A stretch of 43,656 bases of DNA. It comes from an uncultured Lachnospiraceae bacterium. GTDB taxonomy: Bacteria; Bacillota; Clostridia; Lachnospirales; Lachnospiraceae. Positions 36,551-43,656 of this stretch are shown piece by piece (the stretch's first letter is position 1; each line of letters begins with the position of its first letter). The notes below the pieces were generated by a model that saw only the letters and a list, made by a program, of their open reading frames with translations, was not told where the DNA came from and did no database searches. The position numbers and the translations under genes were made by a program. Location: assembly GCA_902786365.1 (NCBI GenBank), contig CADACD010000020.1, positions 1 to 43,656 of the forward strand. The letters are read 5' to 3'.

Positions 36551-36623
36551 AGCGCGAGACGGGACTCGAACCCGCGACCCCGACCTTGGCAAGGTCGTGC
36601 TCCACCAACTGAGCCACTCGCGC
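36551..36623 (-). tRNA. tRNA-Gly (GCC anticodon)
   Basis: The minus strand folds as a full cloverleaf of 73 nt: acceptor GCGCGAG/CTCGCGC, D arm with GGCTCAGTTGGT, anticodon stem CGACC/GGTCG with loop TTGCCAA (anticodon GCC), and T arm GCGGG-TTCGAGT-CCCGT. The discriminator is U. CCA is not encoded. It has its own promoter and terminator, so it is a single-tRNA transcription unit. Confidence 0.96.
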
Positions 36624-36726: not shown

Positions 36727-38418
36727 TTACTCCACTACCACATAACAGTCTTTGCCAAAGAAAGACACACCATATCTTACTATCGTCTGATATCCGGCAT
36801 TTATAAGCTCCATATCATATTTCTTATCATGTATCTGTATTAATGCCTTCTCTGCGTCTGCCACCATCTTGTCGGCACTCTTTGACATCTTAAATTCAAA
36901 GATATATGCCGGCTGGAATATTGATACGGGTTTCATCCACAAGTCTGTCCTTCCATTGCCACTTTCCCTGTTTGACTTTACCACATAATCTCCCATTCCA
37001 TATAATATTCCAGATAGAAAACCATGATAGAAATTTTCATAATAATCATGAAAACTGATGTATAAATTCAGCATGTAGGTAATTTCCTCTTTTACAACTT
37101 CCGCATTCTTGTCTGCAATGGCATCAAACAGTTTTTTTGCATCCCTTTTCTTTAACTGTGCATCAAACCATGTCCGAATCTTGTTTTCAAAAATGTATAA
37201 AACTTCCTGATTCGGTATTGTCATTGTCACATAACATGTTCTGTTTTCAAACCTCTCCGATATTTTCTTAAAATATCCTGCAAAGAACATGAAATTCCAA
37301 AGATTATCCATATTTTCATACACTTCATCATAGGTGATATCTTCATGCACCGGTTTCTCTATGGTCCCCCCTGCTATCAGCAGCTCTATCTCATCCTTTA
37401 CTTCTCTGTCTGCCATATCAATCAGGGTTCGCACAATGGAATTGCTGCTGGTGTTTGCCCAGTAGGATACCGGAAATGCGTCTTCTTTAAACATATGGTC
37501 CTTGATATACTTGATGGTACTCCATGGATTATAGACATTTGCCTCTCCAAAATAGTAGCCATTATACCACTCTTTTAATTCCTCATATTTGTGTTCTAAA
37601 TGATAATCCGCACAGATTTTCTGCACTTCTTCGTCTGTAAATCCAAAATATTCACCATAATTTACGCTCATGATGGAATTGATATCAAGATTATTAAGTC
37701 CTGTGAAAATAGATTCCTTGGAGATTCTTAAACATCCTGTAATCACTGCAAAATACAGATTGTCATTTGTCTTTAATGTACTGCCGAACAGCTCCCTTAT
37801 AAAGTCTACCATTTCTTTGTAAAAACCATACTCATAGGCACCTTCAAGCGGTACATCATATTCATCGAGAAGAACAATCACATCTTTTCCGGTTGCCATT
37901 TTCAGGCACATACACAAAAAATTCAGCGAATCTTTGTATTCATATGGTTCAAGCTCTTCTCTTAAATATTTCATAAAAGTCTCTTTCTCATCTTCCATAA
38001 GATACTCTGATTTCAATATATAGCGGTGTCTTCTAAATTCATTTGCCAGAGTTCTTCTCAGAAGTTTCATGCTGCTCTCCAATGTCGACTGCTTTCCTGA
38101 CTTAAGCGTTAACGAAATAACAGGATATTTTCCCATATGTTTTGTGTATCGTTCTCCTGCTTCCATAATCTTCATGCCGTCAAACAGATGTTTATAATCT
38201 TCTTTGTTTCCCCTCAAATCATATCCATCCTCAAAAAAATATTTGAGCATGCTCAGTGTAAGCGTCTTTCCAAAACGCCTTGGTCTGGTAAACAAATTTA
38301 CCATTGTCTTATTATCTAACAATTCTTTTATGAATAATGTTTTATCAACATAATAATAATCCTCTGAAATCAATTTTTCAAAATTTTCATACCCTATTGG
38401 TAATGGATAAAAATCCAT
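36727..38418 (-). CDS. AAA-ATPase-like / PD-(D/E)XK nuclease-like protein
   Basis: 563 aa. The N-terminal part is the AAA-ATPase_like type (PF09820): LPIGYENFEKLI, YYVDKTLFIKELL and the P-loop variant RPRRFGKTLTLSML (about 45), with VIVLLDEYDVPLEGAYE as Walker B. The C-terminal part is DUF1703-like (PF08011) with a PD-(D/E)XK-type core, GNGRTDLWM followed by AYIFEFKM. These proteins occur in many copies in gut Firmicutes and Bacteroidetes; function is not established, and a nuclease or defence/mobile role has been suggested. GGAGGAG precedes the ATG. Confidence 0.9.
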   Translation of the reverse strand: MDFYPLPIGYENFEKLISEDYYYVDKTLFIKELLDNKTMVNLFTRPRRFGKTLTLSMLKYFFEDGYDLRGNKEDYKHLFDGMKIMEAGERYTKHMGKYPVISLTLKSGKQSTLESSMKLLRRTLANEFRRHRYILKSEYLMEDEKETFMKYLREELEPYEYKDSLNFLCMCLKMATGKDVIVLLDEYDVPLEGAYEYGFYKEMVDFIRELFGSTLKTNDNLYFAVITGCLRISKESIFTGLNNLDINSIMSVNYGEYFGFTDEEVQKICADYHLEHKYEELKEWYNGYYFGEANVYNPWSTIKYIKDHMFKEDAFPVSYWANTSSNSIVRTLIDMADREVKDEIELLIAGGTIEKPVHEDITYDEVYENMDNLWNFMFFAGYFKKISERFENRTCYVTMTIPNQEVLYIFENKIRTWFDAQLKKRDAKKLFDAIADKNAEVVKEEITYMLNLYISFHDYYENFYHGFLSGILYGMGDYVVKSNRESGNGRTDLWMKPVSIFQPAYIFEFKMSKSADKMVADAEKALIQIHDKKYDMELINAGYQTIVRYGVSFFGKDCYVVVE

Positions 38419-38498: not shown

Positions 38499-39791
38499 TT
38501 AATAAAACACATGATCTCCTATCACTTCTCCCTGTCTGGAACCATCATTCAACCTAAAAAACAGCCATGGACCTACAATATTTCCCTGCTCCAAAACTTC
38601 TCTTGCTGCCTGATAGCATGTTGCATTTGCACCTCTTGCCAACACAAGTGCAAATCTGTTACTCACCGTTACCGGAGTGAACTGATATGGCTGATAGATG
38701 ACTTCAAATAAAGTGTTTGGAAAACTGATACTGTTGATTCTATTCACTACAACTGCCCCAACACAAAGCATACCATAATAAGTCTGGTTACCGGCTTCAC
38801 ACTCTATCAATGCTGCAAGCATTTCCAAATCATTCGTCTGCATGACATACCCCGGCTGTTCACTGCCACTTCCGTCTTCTCCCTGGTGATTTCCACTGCC
38901 ATCATCTGCCGGTGATGTCGTTTCATTTTCCTGACTTTGTGAATTTCGTATGGACTCTTCATAACTTGCTCTTTCCCTACTCTCTCTTTCCCTTCTCTCC
39001 CGTTCGATGCTCTCTGCTTCTATTATCCTTGACTCTTCTATTCTTCTGTTTTCATCATCAATTGCCTGCTGGTTAGCAAGAACCTTTTTTTCATATTCAA
39101 GTGCTGCCTTTTCTGCCGCCTCAATATTTTCTGCGTACATTAATATCTGCTCATTTGTATCACTTATCTTTTGATTTAAAATCTGCCTCTGTATCGAAAG
39201 TTCTTCCTTTAATTCTAAAAGCTCCTGTTGTTCTTCTTCATATTCCTCTTCCTTTTGTTCTCTTTCAAGTTTGATTTGTTTGTATTTTTCAAGCATTTTT
39301 CTGTCATACTTCGTTAACTCTATCAAATATTCTGCCTTATTCAGCCGTTCGGAAAATGTGCCTTCTGCAAATAAAATATCTATATACGAATATTCACTTA
39401 ATTCATACATGTATTTTATTCGCAGTTTCATATCAGCATATTGTTTTTCCTCATCTTCTGCAGCTATGTCAAGGTCTTTTTTTGTATTATCTAGCTGTGC
39501 TGTCTTTTCACTTATCTGCTGTTCAATACCACTTATCTTTTCAGAAATCTCTGCCAGTTCTGTATTGAGCTGTGACACTACACTTTCAAGCTCGCTTTTT
39601 GTCTCCTGCAGACCGGATGCCTGCTCTTGATAAGATGACATTTGTTCCTGATTATCTTTTTTCGCACTCTCCATCTCTGAAATACTCTGGTTAGCTTTGC
39701 TTACCATCGAATAACATATGACAAACATCATCACAAGAACTGACATCACTATTGTACTTATATATTTTGATTCATTTTTACTGCTGTTCAT
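38499..39791 (-). CDS. secreted cell-wall hydrolase, coiled coil plus SleB-type domain
   Basis: 430 aa. An N-terminal membrane/signal helix (about 11-30) is followed by a long coiled coil (35-270, Glu/Gln/Lys-rich, CwlO/PcsB-like in pattern), a Ser/Arg/Glu stretch and a short Gly/Ser linker, then a Hydrolase_2 (SleB) domain (about 325-430) with the likely catalytic Glu in ALIECEAGNQTYYGM and VGAVVVNRI. SleB enzymes are lytic transglycosylases acting on spore cortex or wall peptidoglycan; the coiled coil suggests regulation by a divisome ABC (FtsEX-like) partner, which is inference. Ribosome binding site is weak (GAAAGAG). Next to another wall-related gene. Confidence 0.87.
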   Translation of the reverse strand: MNSSKNESKYISTIVMSVLVMMFVICYSMVSKANQSISEMESAKKDNQEQMSSYQEQASGLQETKSELESVVSQLNTELAEISEKISGIEQQISEKTAQLDNTKKDLDIAAEDEEKQYADMKLRIKYMYELSEYSYIDILFAEGTFSERLNKAEYLIELTKYDRKMLEKYKQIKLEREQKEEEYEEEQQELLELKEELSIQRQILNQKISDTNEQILMYAENIEAAEKAALEYEKKVLANQQAIDDENRRIEESRIIEAESIERERRERESRERASYEESIRNSQSQENETTSPADDGSGNHQGEDGSGSEQPGYVMQTNDLEMLAALIECEAGNQTYYGMLCVGAVVVNRINSISFPNTLFEVIYQPYQFTPVTVSNRFALVLARGANATCYQAAREVLEQGNIVGPWLFFRLNDGSRQGEVIGDHVFY

Positions 39792-39913: not shown

Positions 39914-40498
39914 TCACCCTAGTTCGGCGATTCTTGTGACACCAACATATATCTGTGATATCTTATACCATGTTGCAAAATCGATGACTCCTGTCTGTGG
40001 CAAATCAAATGTTTTCTGAAATGCCCTGACTGCCGCCTTTGTCTTTTCTCCAAATATTCCGTCTGCATCAATTCTCGGAATATTAGAGTACACTTCTGCT
40101 ATTCTGTCTAATTGCTGCTGAATCTGCCTTACCTTACTTCCTGTGGAACCAATATCAAGGCTGTAGCCAGGATAAGAAATTGGTACACCCGAAATTTGTT
40201 CCGCCGTATTAATATAAATGGAATCACCATAATAGTTTCGAAGTATCTGTATTGCAGAATACCCTGAGTCAGACAATTCTTTTGACCCCCATTGTGCCAG
40301 CCATCCCGGACACAATACTCTCTGTCCATCACAATACTGTGTAAGAATAGGCTGTTTTACATTTGGTCTTGATAAATATTGGTTAAAAATTCCATCTACT
40401 ACTCTTGAGATAGAATCGTAAATATTTCTATTGTTGACCCATTTGTGGTCGTAAGCAGTAGATGATGTAATTGTGAAATTGTAGCCTTTGTTTCTATA
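39914..40498 (-). pseudogene. 3' part of SpoIID-like/peptidoglycan-binding gene cut by integrated element
   Basis: An open frame of 194 codons without a start runs from the recombinase boundary to TGA at 39914. It begins YRNKGYNFTITSSTAYDHKW and continues LTQYCDGQR, then GWLAQWGSKELSDSGYSAIQ, which matches the end of a SpoIID/LytB-type domain (SQWGAKALAEQGYS pattern). A peptidoglycan-binding type 1 domain follows (IGSTGSKVRQIQQQLD, DGIFGEKTKAAVRAFQ). The frame has no stop or frameshift up to the junction; the next in-frame stop is at 40508-40510 inside the recombinase. The N-terminal half must be elsewhere, most simply beyond the element to the right. The remnant could be expressed only after excision. 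Confidence 0.82.
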
Positions 40499-40507
40499 CA
40501 GCGTTAT
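40494..40507. other. predicted element/host junction (att site)
   Basis: The recombinase stop TAG (40496-40494) overlaps the first host codons (TAT AGA, from 40498). Host coding homology begins at or just after 40499 and a host-frame stop lies at 40508-40510, so the crossover should fall in this interval. I cannot define the core without the other end. Confidence 0.5.
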
Positions 40508-42152
40508 CTATATTTTTTCCAAGCTCTCCCAGATACTCTTCCAAGCTGATTTTGAACTTTATCTTGATATCATTTTCCTTAACATCAATTCTCTCTATCA
40601 GCTTTGCAAGTAAAACCTTTTTTTCCTGTATGTCTGCCTCAAGAAATACCTCTGACCAGTTAATCATCATATTTCCCATCAGCTGAAGGTCGCACTTGTC
40701 AACCTCCATATTTCTATATTCTGTTTCTTTTTGCAAACAGGCATTTTCAAGTTCTATTATACTTTGTTCTTTCTCCTTTATCAAGTGGGATAATTTTTCA
40801 GCACTAAATGCGAACTCTCCCCTTAATGCTGATGGGATATTTTCTTCTAATGTTGCAATATCCTTTTTCAAGTCTTTTATCCTGTTTGTAAGTTCTGACA
40901 ATTCTTTTCTCTTACTTTCCCTTTCCTTTTCCTGCAATTCAAGAACATCATCATAGATGGAAATTTTCTTAAAACTGTCAAGGTAAGTTGCTGTCACAGA
41001 ATAAACTATTTCCTCTAATTCCTCTGCCCTGTAGAAACTTTTCCCACTGCACTCTGTAGAGGCATTGGCTTTGGTAGTGCACCTATATCTCCTCGTCATT
41101 TTACTTTTTTTCTCTCCACTCTTTGTTGTCCAGTAATCGTATTTACTTCCGTTCGTGAGTTTACAGCCACAACAGCCACAGTATGCCAGACCCATCAATG
41201 ATAATTTTCCTGTTGTCGATACAGGATATTTTCCCTCATTGTTATCTCTCGCTGTCTTTATATTTTTCTTATGCCGTTCTCTCATTTCCATTGCTTTATT
41301 CCAGATATCCTCTGACACAATGACCAGTTCCTCTATCTGTTTCTCCGATAATATCCATTGCTCCATAGGAAGTCTCTCAAAACTTCCACCACATGAACTT
41401 CTCTGTCTGCGATTGTAAGTCATGTAACCTTTATAAATTGGATTCTGTAATATCTGATTAACAGTACATGCTTTCCAAGTCTTATGAATCGCCGGTACAC
41501 CATTTTCATTTAGCACTTTCGCAATCTTGAATGCTCCGTAACCGTAATTGACAGCATAATCAAATATTTTTCTGACAATCTCTGCTTTTTCCTCATTAAT
41601 CACTAATTTCTTTAAGGCTCTGCCATGATTACTGATTTCTCCCGAATAAACCAAATCATAACCTAAAGGTGCTTTCCCACCTACAAATTTCCCTGCCTTT
41701 ACAGACACTTCCTGTGCAGATTTTACTCTCATTCCTGTTTTTCTGCTCTCACCCTCTGCCTGCCAATAGCGTATGTAGTTTAACAGTTTATCAATATGCT
41801 CTTTTGTTTTTAATTGTCCCTCTTTTACTGACCATACCTCAACTCCCAGATTGTTTAATTCCGAAACATAAGCTGGCGTTTCATCTTCCTTTCTTCCGAT
41901 ACGGTCTGACATATATACTAACAGCACATCAAAACTTTTTGTCTTGGCATCGGCTAATATTTCCTGTAATACCTTTCTTTTTTCAATCGGTGTTTTATAG
42001 CCGGAGACAGCCGGTTCTAAATATTCCTTTTGAAATTCCCACTCATTCATCGTATCAATAAACTTTTTGCATTCTGCACGCTGTACAGGTATATCATCAT
42101 CATGTAACTGTTGCTTTGATGATACTCGGTATAAACAATTCACTCTCTTCAT
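40494..42152 (-). CDS. large serine recombinase (integrase)
   Basis: About 552 aa from ATG 42152 (MKRVNCLYRVSSKQQ), with GGAGAG upstream; an open frame back to 42194 runs into the repeat array and is unlikely. Resolvase catalytic domain (1-150) with nucleophile Ser11 in YRVSS and YMSDRIGRK; recombinase domain (about 165-290; GKAPLGYDLVYSG, QILQNPIYKGYMTYNRR); zinc ribbon (about 325-390; CGCCGCKLTNGS and RYRCTTKANASTECSG); C-terminal coiled coil (400-480). Such enzymes integrate phages and transposons by strand exchange between short att sites. It abuts the truncated SpoIID-like gene, as expected for an integrase at the element end. Confidence 0.93.
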   Translation of the reverse strand: MKRVNCLYRVSSKQQLHDDDIPVQRAECKKFIDTMNEWEFQKEYLEPAVSGYKTPIEKRKVLQEILADAKTKSFDVLLVYMSDRIGRKEDETPAYVSELNNLGVEVWSVKEGQLKTKEHIDKLLNYIRYWQAEGESRKTGMRVKSAQEVSVKAGKFVGGKAPLGYDLVYSGEISNHGRALKKLVINEEKAEIVRKIFDYAVNYGYGAFKIAKVLNENGVPAIHKTWKACTVNQILQNPIYKGYMTYNRRQRSSCGGSFERLPMEQWILSEKQIEELVIVSEDIWNKAMEMRERHKKNIKTARDNNEGKYPVSTTGKLSLMGLAYCGCCGCKLTNGSKYDYWTTKSGEKKSKMTRRYRCTTKANASTECSGKSFYRAEELEEIVYSVTATYLDSFKKISIYDDVLELQEKERESKRKELSELTNRIKDLKKDIATLEENIPSALRGEFAFSAEKLSHLIKEKEQSIIELENACLQKETEYRNMEVDKCDLQLMGNMMINWSEVFLEADIQEKKVLLAKLIERIDVKENDIKIKFKISLEEYLGELGKNIDNAV

Positions 42153-42184
42153 GTTCCATCTCTCCATTTCCATTTTCTTTTTGT

Positions 42185-42382
42185 GTTTCATCATTTCTGT
42201 TTGCGTTTCATCATTTCTGCTTGTGTTTCATCTTTTCTTCTTGCGTTTCATTATTTCTTGCGTTTCATCATTTCTGTTTGCATTTCATCATTTCTTCTTC
42301 TGTTTCATCTTTTCTTCTTGCGTTTCATCTTTTTTTCTCGTGTTTCATTATTTCTTTTTGCTTTTCATCATTTTCTGCTTGT
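42185..42382. repeat. ten tandem copies of a 20-bp repeat
   Basis: Units on the plus strand start gtttcatcatttctgtttgc; starts at 42185, 42205, 42225, 42245 (17 bp, one deletion), 42262, 42282, 42302, 42322, 42342, 42362. Each keeps tttcat plus a T-rich tail; variation is mainly at positions 8-9 and 14-20. A degenerate partial copy lies at 42165-42184. The period is not a multiple of three and minus-strand frames are stopped, so it is not a protein repeat. It lies between the small ORF and the recombinase. Confidence 0.85.
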
Positions 42383-42383
42383 A

Positions 42384-42707
42384 TTACTCTCTCTTTCTTT
42401 TTTCATCTTCCATCTGTACTGCTCTATCCTCTTTTTGTCTGACTTCCTGCTCCTTTTGGGTGTGAAATTGTAACGCTGTATCCTCTCTTTGTAAAGACGC
42501 AAATTTCTTATTGATATATGTCCTTTTCAGCCAATCCCTTATCTCTCCATTGATACCAAGATTTTTTTCACTAAATTCAGCCGACACACGATAGGAACCA
42601 CACTGTGTTGTAAATGAATGACCTTCCACACTGTCTGTCTCTCTCTCGTTATTAGTTAGTAAATTAATATGTTCTTTTTTGTCTGAATATTCTCTACCAT
42701 ATTCCAT
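42384..42707 (-). CDS. small protein of the mobile element, possibly TnpW-like
   Basis: 107 aa, hydrophilic. GGAGGTAGTTTT precedes the ATG, which supports translation. The centre (about 35-70; GSYRVSAEFSEKNLGINGEI, then RDWLKRTYI) loosely resembles the short TnpW-type proteins of Tn4451-like elements, which have a Y-x-V-x-x-x-F-S core and a terminal helix. The C terminus is a Glu/Lys/Arg-rich helix that ends at the repeat array. Its place just before a large serine recombinase fits such a partner. The family match is from memory and weak. Confidence 0.6.
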   Translation of the reverse strand: MEYGREYSDKKEHINLLTNNERETDSVEGHSFTTQCGSYRVSAEFSEKNLGINGEIRDWLKRTYINKKFASLQREDTALQFHTQKEQEVRQKEDRAVQMEDEKRKRE

Positions 42708-43293
42708 AAAACTACCTCCAAATTTTTAAAAGATAGTCATGGATATTGAAATGTCGTTTTTCACGTCTATCAGTGATTCCTAATGTATGATGTCTTTTTT
42801 TCAAAAACCTCTTTTCTTTTCAAAAAACCTTTCAAATAAACTATGATACTGCTATAGGCTGTTATATGTATTTCAAATATTCCAGACGTATTTCACTATA
42901 ACCATAAAAACTCCCATCTTTTGACAGATATGCTTAACCTTTTCAATTTTATTTTGCAAATGTATTCACAATATCAGTATCTGTTCTGCAATTTTAAATT
43001 GACTCTATTTTTGCTGTCATAAACAGATTGTTTATTATCTGTCATTTGATATGCCATTTTCTAATGCTTTTGCATACCTGTTTTTTCACTGTTCTCATTT
43101 TCCAACCAGTTAATTTTCTGACTGCCAAATATGACCAGCCATGGAGACCCCCATTTTTATTTATTTTTCAAAAACCATATTTTCAGACTATTTTTTTACT
43201 AAAATCAAAAATAATTTTCTCTTCTCATTTCCCCACCCAAAAAAATATAGTACTATCTTCTTTGTACTATCAGAATAACTGTAAAATAGTAAA
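42708..43293. other. non-coding stretch inside the element
   Basis: No gene with a credible start and ribosome binding site. Short frames reading KWGSPWLVIFGSQKINWLEN or MAYQMTDNKQSVYDSKNR on the minus strand (about 43020-43165) are too short to accept. An inverted repeat atagtac/gtactat lies at 43247-43270, and TGACAGATA occurs in both orientations near 42922 and 43037. Confidence 0.5.
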
Positions 43294-43336
43294 AAAATGC
43301 TATACAGACTTGATGTTTATGTCTGTATAGCATTTT
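43294..43336 (-). terminator. Rho-independent terminator of the element operon
   Basis: A 16-bp perfect stem (arms 43294-43309 and 43321-43336, aaaatgctatacagac / gtctgtatagcatttt) with an 11-nt loop, followed on the minus strand by seven T residues. It directly follows the frameshifted gene ending at 43342. Confidence 0.85.
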
Positions 43337-43341
43337 ATACT

Positions 43342-43520
43342 TTAATTTATTTCATATGGATTGAGATTACCGTAAATGTTAATTTCAATGTATGTTTTCT
43401 TAAGGTCTATCTCTTCTATTCTGCCTGTCATTGTATCAAGTGACGCTTTCTCAGATAATGTATCCACTATGCATAGTGACTGTGGTATCTCAACACCATT
43501 TAATTTTATTACCGCCCCAT
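43342..43520 (-). pseudogene. small phage-like gene, frameshifted after its start codon
   Basis: The ATG at 43520-43518 overlaps the stop of the upstream gene as TAATG, the usual coupled arrangement, but ATG GGG CGG is followed at once by TAA. Adding one G to the G4 run would open a 59-codon frame reading AVIKLNGVEIPQSLCIVDTL and ending GNLNPYEIN at 43342. The N-terminal KLNGVEIP motif is similar to small phage tail-type proteins (DUF6711-like, from memory). It is either a broken gene or a phase-variable or recoded one. A strong terminator follows. Confidence 0.6.
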
Positions 43521-43656
43521 TAAGAACACCCCCCTTTTTGAAGTTTTTTGACTATCTGCTGTGGTGTGTACTTTCCGTCTGAAAGCTGAACTAACTGTTC
43601 AATTGTCAAATGCTTTCTCTGGTAGGCATCTATCAGCTGTGCTGTTGTAATGTCCT
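43520..43656 (-). CDS. C-terminal end of a mobile-element gene, cut by window edge
   Basis: The last 44 codons are visible: DITTAQLIDAYQRKHLTIEQ, then LVQLSDGKYTPQQIVKKLQK and GGCS before TAA at 43520-43522. The repeated short helices with LTIEQL and YTPQQI resemble small phage-associated proteins. I do not recognise the family. Its stop overlaps the next gene's ATG. A AAAAAGGGGGG run lies just before the stop. Confidence 0.6.
   Translation of the reverse strand, partial: DITTAQLIDAYQRKHLTIEQLVQLSDGKYTPQQIVKKLQKGGCS

Follow-up and report, generated by a model that had tools for sequence, protein, structure and literature searches.

The right-hand part of the window, i.e., the whole stretch of 43,656 nucleotides analyzed here (contig CADACD010000020.1 of an uncultured Lachnospiraceae bacterium, genome G000), carries a large serine recombinase gene joined to a gene fragment that encodes a peptidoglycan-binding domain. 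This arrangement raises the questions of which gene is interrupted and whether the interrupting DNA is an ordinary mobile element or one that is excised during sporulation to rebuild the gene. The features at the junction are as follows:

38499..39791 (−), cell wall hydrolase of the SleB type (Hydrolase_2), encoded downstream of sleC; the genomes G008 and G004 have a similar ORF after sleC
39914..40498 (−), sleC C-terminal exon (194 codons plus stop) with PG_binding_1, corresponding to residues ~223-416 of the 416-aa intact homolog
40494..42152 (−), large serine recombinase of 552 aa, counted from the ATG at 42152; the ORF is open to an ATG at 42194
40498..40499 (−), GT crossover dinucleotide at the element/exon junction, within the W-Y codons TGG TAY, assigned by family-wide comparison

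The host exon matches PG_binding_1 in Pfam with an E-value of 2.1e-16. Its intact homolog in the sister genome G008 (416 aa) combines SpoIID (1.1e-05) with PG_binding_1, and its residues 13-415 match the PDB entry 9h68_A, “Spore cortex-lytic enzyme pre-pro-form” (E 1.2e-129). On the strength of this domain combination and this match, the interrupted gene is, judged by its sequence, sleC, the gene for the spore cortex-lytic enzyme, which breaks open the spore wall during germination. The first-pass annotation had described a serine-recombinase element interrupting a SpoIID-like/peptidoglycan-binding gene, with the 194-codon host frame intact up to the recombinase stop; the ORFs, the Pfam matches, the match to 9h68_A and the overlap of the two frames at 40494-40498 bear this out. 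In the overlap, the gene strand GCTGTATAG is read as GTA TAG by the recombinase and as TAT AGA by the host frame. The recombinase frame stops with TAG at 40494, its last sense codon and stop codon being partly made of sleC sequence, and the host frame begins within these terminal bases and continues for 194 codons to 39914. Given this overlap, translational coupling is thinkable, such that the two halves of sleC would act as separate proteins and rejoining would be unneeded. However, the C-terminal exon lacks a start codon at the junction, and the junction (hereafter site A) lies inside the SpoIID model match (residues 182-256). Furthermore, among the 66 of 87 relatives in which the recombinase ends at most 97 bp from a sleC exon, 25 have the recombinase on the N-exon side and on the opposite strand, which excludes coupling in these loci. 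Separately acting halves are therefore very improbable.

The N-terminal half, which the first-pass annotation expected, was found, though on a different contig of G000 (G000:C2:150177-150854, plus strand, residues 1-226), where it is preceded by a folA-like gene that, judged by eye, is the same gene as in G008. A search of the G000 genome revealed no further copy of sleC and none that is intact. Joined in silico at the GT common to both, the two exons form a 417-aa frame with no stop that is 93% identical to the intact SleC of G008. With the missing half in hand, the frame restored at GT and no other copy found in G000, the insertion is indeed precise and within a spore-related coding sequence; nor do the homologs naturally start at the junction, given that 4 of the 9 genomes of the genus possess an uninterrupted full-length sleC. 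The G000 genome also encodes SpoIVA and an uninterrupted sigma-K-like gene. The location of the G000 halves on different contigs, and the presence among the source genomes of metagenome-assembled genomes (MAGs) that may mix strains (e.g., G433, which contains several sleC pieces), could point to an assembly or binning artefact. For the class of split sleC loci, this reading is already refuted, because both site-A exons are found on one contig in 34 loci, some of them on contigs whose titles name isolates (Lachnospiraceae bacterium A2 and 28-4, Eubacterium sp. 14-2), and also in the one-contig genome G350; the probability left to an artefact is negligible.

Comparison of the relatives defines the crossover. 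The first-pass annotation had proposed a 14-bp duplicated core at 40494-40507; the family-wide comparison replaces it with the dinucleotide GT at 40498-40499, which occurs at both ends of the site-A loci that were aligned in register and is the center of the dyad GAAT-N16-GT-N16-ATTC. In the right arms, ATTC is located exactly at +17 in 26 of 54 cases, including that of G000, ATTCGGGG; in the left arms, GAAT is located exactly at -20 in 36 of 58, the G000 left arm being GAAA. A 2-bp AA core in G000, suggested by a by-eye comparison with the G008 protein, was dropped, as the site-A loci share GT and the dyad is centered there. Of the 41 site-A loci in which both exons are present, 40 pair in frame at GT (39 of 40 once the duplicate L107=G219 is removed); L076 is the one locus left unpaired by the rejoining script. 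The first automatic rejoining gave 35 of 41, with the wrong GT in a few loci, and a tightened pattern gave 40; in L080, the script picked an upstream GT, and the register alignment displays the aligned one. Since the script demands frame, the register alignments, made without joining, are an independent check of GT. The predicted attP of G000 and two other predicted attP patterns had no matches in the viral contigs. One relative is represented in three forms, with attP in the viral contig L143, attL in L132 and L166, and attR in L161, the matching stretches being 99-100% identical. L143 encodes a clade-A recombinase and has no sleC; it may be the phage before integration rather than an excised one. 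Taken together, excision of the element at GT with restoration of the sleC frame is a well-supported prediction.

The part of the element that is present in the window contains the following additional features:

40500..43656 (no strand), right-hand part of the sleC-intervening element, extending past the window; G000:C2 carries the opposite end, ~150855-154706
42174..42382 (no strand), degenerate tandem repeat (about ten units of 20 bp) separating the small ORF from the recombinase
42384..42707 (−), ORF of 107 aa, immediately upstream of the recombinase
42781..42789 (−), CATACATTA, −10-like box, 74 bp upstream of the small ORF, with no −35 displayed; weak, being a −10 match alone

The recombinase contains, in the expected order, Resolvase (4.7e-22), Recombinase (1.1e-18) and Zn_ribbon_recom (3.7e-08) Pfam domains and matches the PHROGs integrase family phrog_95 (E 1.6e-90); its residues S11, S12, C325, C328 and C358 are invariant among 7 site-A relatives. 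The 107-aa ORF could be a diverged recombination directionality factor. It matches marginally the family of small ORFs found in the related elements; its matches in PHROGs are weak and unnamed (E 0.017 and 0.027), the G350 counterpart has none there, and neither ORF has a match in Pfam. The box upstream fits the −10 boxes of sigma-E and sigma-K. The element also encodes a rolling-circle Rep protein (PF23343, 1.9e-13). Among the proteins scanned from the two G000 element ends, there is no trustworthy match to phage structural genes, the best tail match (E 0.0048) being on Rep, and defence-system models give weak matches alone (E 0.0037-0.0077), to one 154-aa protein. The assembly of contig C2 stops at 154706 and that of the window contig at 43656, and the middle of the element between them is unassembled; thus, the element is at least ~7 kb long.

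Many gut relatives also have a split sleC. Base-by-base checks confirmed the split in at least 24 of the 255 sleC-positive Lachnospiraceae genomes; G106 and G395 appear split at site A by coordinates alone, and G108, G119, G129, G178, G183 and G236 were left out of the counts (paralog, contig edge or frameshift). Records treated as duplicates of one contig (L107=G219, L084=G380, L098=G064, L091=G235) were retained in the 66/87 adjacency count, the 40/41 rejoining count and the small-ORF count given below, and were dropped from the omega pairs, the promoter boxes of the candidate directionality factor, the tree, the dyad counts and the open-frame counts of C-terminal exons. In a quick tree that included 12 of the 15 loci lacking sleC, 72 sleC-integrated site-A recombinases and two viral ones form one branch (SH-aLRT 92). 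Recombinases of a second, distant clade interrupt sleC at site B, which lies about 65 codons downstream of site A, and in three genomes sleC is in three exons. A third split site, at codon ~160, is found in G317 and in L132 of the MAG G433, with two tandem resolvase-like genes (by eye); it was left out of the resolved sites, the exon ends overlapping oddly in G317. The site-A clade ranges from a 145-kb viral contig to cassettes of 1.9 kb. In the smallest elements (1.9-2.1 kb), all that was recognized is the recombinase and a small conserved ORF. This ORF, which may encode the directionality factor, precedes the recombinase in 75 of 93 regions, with 0 matches in shuffled ORFs. Several sleC elements contain cargo-like ORFs or nothing recognized besides these two genes; the element of G032 has tail- and baseplate-like ORFs (judged by eye, no family search), and viral contigs of 68 and 145 kb carry attP or attP-like sites.

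These elements could be ordinary mobile elements or phages for which sleC serves as a conserved, non-essential attB and which are excised at a low random or induced frequency, the carriers being germination-impaired or relying on other cortex hydrolases. The Rep protein of the G000 element and the phage-like relatives are compatible with this possibility, as is the finding that, among the pairs listed, recombinases 98-100% identical are present in hosts whose sleC exons are 60-91% identical. The elements therefore also move horizontally; accordingly, some insertions are recent and by themselves prove nothing regarding development. SleC could also be dispensable, given the SleB-type hydrolase that adjoins it in G000 and a full-length diverged SleC-like paralog, 42-44% identical, in the split genomes G032, G256 and G380. 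However, where element and host gene have co-diverged, the separated exons, which cannot be translated as one protein, are by sequence comparison under purifying selection: omega of the C-terminal exon is 0.00 (L129/L138), 0.01 (L083/L087), 0.04 (L062/L080) and 0.08 (L078/L081) in those pairs, among 60 listed, for which recombinase dS and exon dS are of the same order (in most other listed pairs, dS is saturated or very unequal). For the C-terminal exon of G000 against G008, omega is 0.014, with 1 replacement on the G000 branch and 2 on the G008 branch. Moreover, 57 of 58 C-terminal exons are open for at least 192 codons or to site B, the 58th, of 6 codons, probably reflecting a misplaced join in L108 or L116. 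The concentration in sleC of two distant recombinase clades and of the resolvase-like genes at the third site, and the existence of minimal elements without recognized phage or cargo genes, likewise argue against incidental use of an attB, which we consider unlikely.

The best explanation, to which we assign a probability of roughly 0.78, is that the insertion belongs to the skin class of intervening elements, with sleC as its target, and is excised in the sporulating mother cell. Sigma-K-type boxes are found upstream of sleC in 39 of 74 cases compared with 2.9 in shuffles, and sleC of C. difficile depends on sigma-K (PMC3738446). For the candidate directionality factor, the upstream enrichment of CATA...TA is modest (25 of 69, 10.4 when shuffled), and sigma-A-like sites are likewise enriched (7 vs 2.2). 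Together with the purifying selection on the exons and the attP, attL and attR forms of one relative, the sigma-K-like boxes and the C. difficile precedent suggest that excision is regulated. Under this scenario, a mobile element with a large serine recombinase and probably a directionality factor would integrate at GT inside sleC. Recombination of attL with attR at GT, reproduced in silico for G000, would remove it and rejoin the exons in frame, most likely late in sporulation in the mother cell, where sleC would be expressed from a sigma-K-type promoter. The mother cell would then produce SleC for the spore, and the forespore chromosome would retain the element, so that gene and element would both reach the next generation. 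In those of the smallest elements that are oriented like sleC, transcription of the recombinase could start at the sleC promoter, in which case excision would time itself.

As described in the cited accounts, known elements in sporulation genes are few (sigK, spsM, spoVFB, gerE and yabG) and come from Bacillus and Clostridium-type species (PMC4191935, PMC5595907, PMC10747680); no sleC-intervening element was found in the literature searched. The precedents named in the first-pass annotation, skin and SP-beta, are of the right class. In skin, which interrupts sigK (SpoIVCA in Bacillus subtilis; CD1231 with the 53-aa directionality factor CD1234 in C. difficile; PMC5025042, PMC10747680), a serine-recombinase element likewise lies inside a mother-cell sporulation gene, and excision restores the frame. 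The skin target is, however, a sigma factor, whereas the target here is a germination enzyme of the C. difficile sigma-K regulon, and excision here is a prediction made in silico. SP-beta in spsM (SprA/SprB; PMC4191935) is a mobile, phage-borne form of the same strategy, reminiscent of the viral contigs with attP or attP-like sites among the site-A relatives; it resides in a different gene, and the sleC relatives can be as small as 1.9 kb. The gin element in gerE of Bacillus cereus ATCC 10987 is not a phage, and it resembles those sleC elements with cargo-like ORFs or with nothing recognized besides the small ORF and the recombinase, but it spans 28.6 kb with three recombinase genes (PMC5595907), in contrast to the 1.9-2.1 kb of the smallest sleC elements. 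The yin element in yabG of Clostridium botulinum V73 intervenes in the same pathway, YabG being the protein that processes pre-pro-SleC, but is reported as unique to one strain (PMC10747680), whereas the elements in sleC are found across many species and occupy several sites.

A broader reading, to which we give somewhat less than even odds, is that sleC of Lachnospiraceae is a recurrently DNA-spliced gene, kept in two or three exons by two or more recombinase clades that are only distantly related, and by another kind of recombinase at the third site. Reduced to its minimum, the element would be a ~2-kb cassette of recombinase and directionality factor, in effect a DNA intron, run from the late-sporulation promoter of the host, the mother cell rebuilding the enzyme and the forespore inheriting the split gene. 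In any case, one germination gene is a repeated target across Lachnospiraceae, and annotation pipelines and sporulation predictors that seek complete genes may overlook sleC in spore formers. Given that the site-A clade spans the whole range from the viral contig to the cassettes, the route from phage to developmental switch is open to comparative study in this family.

The gene interrupted in the window is identified by sequence comparison as sleC, which encodes the spore cortex-lytic enzyme, because its intact homolog in the sister genome (G008, 416 aa) contains the SpoIID and PG_binding_1 domains and matches the SleC pre-pro-form structure 9h68 (residues 13-415, E 1.2e-129). The relevant features of the host genome (G000) are:

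40494-42152 of the window, minus strand: large serine recombinase, 552 aa (Pfam Resolvase, Recombinase and zinc ribbon; phrog_95 integrase, 1.6e-90)
39914-40498 of the window: sleC C-exon, 194 codons of open frame that has no start codon where it meets the recombinase end
150177-150854 of contig C2: sleC N-exon, residues 1-226, by match to the G008 protein

The C-exon frame shows 96% protein identity to the C-terminal part of the G008 protein, and a search of G000 with that protein matches only two places, the N-exon and, on the window contig (C20), residues 214-416. The first-pass annotation took the element to have inserted within a coding sequence, a reading that the lack of an N-terminal half at the other end would have refuted; that half exists, on a different contig, C2, and in the sister genome without the element the gene is undivided. 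In G008, sleC comes after a folA-like gene (so called on sequence inspection) and before a SleB-type hydrolase. Neighbors of these two kinds flank the G000 exons, with the folA-like gene ahead of the N-exon on C2 and the hydrolase beyond the C-exon in the window. Given that C2 stops 3.85 kb beyond the N-exon and C20 stops 3.16 kb beyond the C-exon, the element spans at least about 7 kb, with the middle unassembled. Its C2 end encodes a rolling-circle replication initiator (PF23343, 1.9e-13; phrog_3419, 1.1e-10). The last sense codon and stop of the recombinase (40494-40499) are partly made of sleC sequence, and in the circle predicted to form on excision the recombinase frame would go on for about 38 more codons (hand count); possibly, the C-terminus differs between the integrated and excised forms, or this is chance. 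Elsewhere in the window, a tRNA-Gly gene (36551-36623) lies beside an AAA-ATPase_like/PDDEXK_9 gene (36727-38418).

Alignment of element ends in the sleC reading register reveals a GT within TGG-TAY (Trp-Tyr; site A) that is common to both ends in G000, other site-A genomes and named loci, with the register off by whole codons in a few rows (G219/L107, L063, L113, L122, L129). Joining the G000 exons at this GT yields a 417-aa protein without stops that is 93% identical to G008 SleC, and in-frame pairing at GT is found in 40 of the 41 site-A loci for which both exons are available (a duplicate locus included; L076 was left unpaired by the script). Independent support for crossover at GT comes from the dyad centered on it: of 54 right arms, 26 carry ATTC exactly at +17, and of 58 left arms, 36 carry GAAT exactly at -20. 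The exact word is absent from 22/58 left arms and from roughly half of the right ones. In G000, the right arm is present (ATTCGGGG) and the left one has GAAA.

For one relative, all three attachment forms are seen. The 68-kb viral contig L143 is 99.8% identical over 5.2 kb to the element end of L132 that meets a sleC exon, and beyond the core it continues into more of the element; long inverted repeats flank the core. The other element end, on L161 from the same metagenome-assembled genome (G433), is 99.1% identical to L143 over 1.5 kb and is joined to sleC residues 218-415. By these matches, L143, L132 and L161 show the attP, attL and attR forms of what is nearly a single element, so that the predicted recombination does occur in nature. 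L143 may be a phage that had yet to integrate rather than an excised, circular form. Strain mixture is possible in G433 because it holds several sleC pieces.

A pattern scan with an alignment of seven site-A recombinases, run on one genome per species (84,980 species) plus viral contigs, yielded 80 loci (the best 80 of 115 relatives) and 7 viral-contig loci. Among these 87, sleC sequence is present in 72, and in 66 the gap between the recombinase stop and an exon (C-exon in 41, N-exon in 25) is 4-97 bp. A quick tree of 94 recombinases, for which the tool warned of long branches, places the 72 sleC-integrated site-A rows on one branch (SH-aLRT 92) together with viral L143 and L145; the G000 recombinase is a diverged member, 37-44% identical to the six others of the seven-sequence alignment. 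Site-A elements that could be measured within one contig are 1.9-18.1 kb long (median 4.6 kb, n=37). By eye, elements L044, L046, L047 and L034 (of G350, G079, G086 and G024) carry cargo-like ORFs (regulator, ABC-transporter, sugar-transport, serine-dehydratase-like, glycosidase-like). A diverged SleC paralog (35-49% identity in the main matched segments) is also split at Trp-Tyr in L073, L076, L078, L079, L081 and L121; L079 shows the N-exon alone, and in the other five loci, where both exons are visible, the element measures 1.9-3.0 kb. The metagenome-assembled genome records of L107, L129 and L138, titled Bacteroidales, Bacillus and Clostridium, are probably mistitled; their sleC and recombinases group with Lachnospiraceae records.

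A second split site (site B) lies about 65 codons downstream of site A, within the WMTQWGS motif. Ten recombinases splitting sleC there form one clade (support 100) far from site A; their aligned parts are 27-31% identical to the window recombinase. Among 22 site-B pairs for which both sides are visible, 20 share TG at one codon position; a three-base shift brings it out in G060, and G430 is the one pair unplaced. Four site-B elements are just 2.4-2.65 kb long, three with the recombinase as the sole convincing ORF and one (G284) with an added 118-aa ORF. In G091 (C12:61711, C2:9599) and G198 (C26:79641, C25:23433), site-B exons lie on large separate contigs whose element-facing sides sum to about 249 and 202 kb, far above other elements, which would mean that these elements are very large or that the chromosome was rearranged afterwards. 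In three genomes located by way of named contigs, Hominisplanchenecus murintestinalis (L089), Lacrimispora saccharolytica An817 (L090) and Lachnospiraceae bacterium (L110), sleC is divided into three exons (about 1-225, 221-291 and 289-415). A third site near codon 160, less clear than A and B, is associated with two tandem resolvase-like genes in L053 (G317) and L132 (11860-16850); cargo ORFs are similar in both genomes.

Across the family, taken to be Lachnospiraceae from contigs that reappear with public names, sleC is matched (E <= 1e-20) in 255 of 397 genomes, 41 of which, picked for weak or double matches, were re-examined together with 3 from outside the sample. Base-level junctions place 7 genomes (G000 included) at site A and 17 at site B, so that split sleC is confirmed in at least 24 of the 255; the remaining 18 comprise 12 probably split by coordinates and 6 unclear. 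A full-length diverged SleC paralog (42-44% identical) accompanies the split gene in 3/24 (G032, G256, G380). In the genus of G000 (9 genomes), sleC is intact in four, split in two (one per site) and missing in three, two of which also lack SpoIVA. SpoIVA is present in G000, as is a sigma-K-like gene in one piece; the cut-off of the sigma-K model is reached in 0/9 genus genomes.

A small ORF with a common motif, the candidate directionality factor, lies upstream of the recombinase, always on the same strand, in 75 of 93 regions (four duplicates included); the model was hand-seeded and refined on its own matches, and no match was found in shuffled ORFs. The 18 others are the window, where a 107-aa ORF matches marginally (9.6 bits), L072 and L118 (cut by contig starts), the sleC-bearing L122, L132 and L142, and 12 loci that lack sleC. 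For the 1.9-2.1 kb elements (L081, L078, L076, L073), this ORF and the recombinase are everything recognised. Upstream of the ORF, CATA...TA is modestly enriched (25/69 versus 10.4 shuffled; 2/69 versus 7.8 in a control inside the recombinase ORF). Sigma-K-type boxes, scanned with a general consensus, occur in 39 of 74 sleC upstream regions versus 2.9 in dinucleotide shuffles; these regions pool intact and split genes from genomes other than G000. The G000 sequence, GCATATAATGA, fits a looser pattern (36/74 versus 4.1 in shuffles), not the strict one. Most elements of 3.5 kb or less are read in the sleC direction (site A 8/10, site B 5/5), so that co-transcription with sleC would be possible; this is only suggestive because larger site-A elements lean alike (19/27) whereas larger site-B ones do not (1/5). 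In C. difficile, sleC is sigma-K-dependent (PMC3738446), and skin excision is restricted to the mother cell by the directionality factor CD1234, which is controlled by sigma-E and SpoIIID (PMC5025042). By analogy, the latter may be a model for sleC elements.

The element class is already known: the open-access literature searched describes intervening elements in sigK, spsM, spoVFB, gerE and yabG. No sleC element was found in this literature, which included PMC5595907, PMC10747680, PMC3738446, PMC5025042, PMC11959909 and PMC13141910. Within this scope, what appears to be new is sleC as a target, its division into multiple exons, the fact that distant recombinase clades use a single gene, and cassettes as small as 2 kb.

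Some elements evidently move between hosts, with recombinases of 98-100% identity in hosts whose sleC exons share 60-91% (G064/L095/L097, L088/L089/L141, G380/L085/L086). In other pairs, the element and sleC have diverged together, as judged by dS of the recombinase, N-exon and C-exon: 0.20, 0.20 and 0.30 in L129/L138, 0.58, 0.84 and 0.79 in L083/L087, and 0.66, 0.70 and 0.76 in L078/L081, with recombinase 0.62 and C-exon 1.04 in L062/L080. The C-exon omega in these pairs is 0.00, 0.01, 0.08 and 0.04, respectively. For G000 versus G008 it is 0.014, and the insertion may be younger than the split of these genomes. In 57 of 58 cases, the C-exon frame stays open for >=192 codons or as far as site B, the 58th probably being a mis-set join. 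Given that the C-exon is untranslatable as SleC with the element in place, the low omega values point to regular reconstitution of sleC in the co-diverged split lineages.
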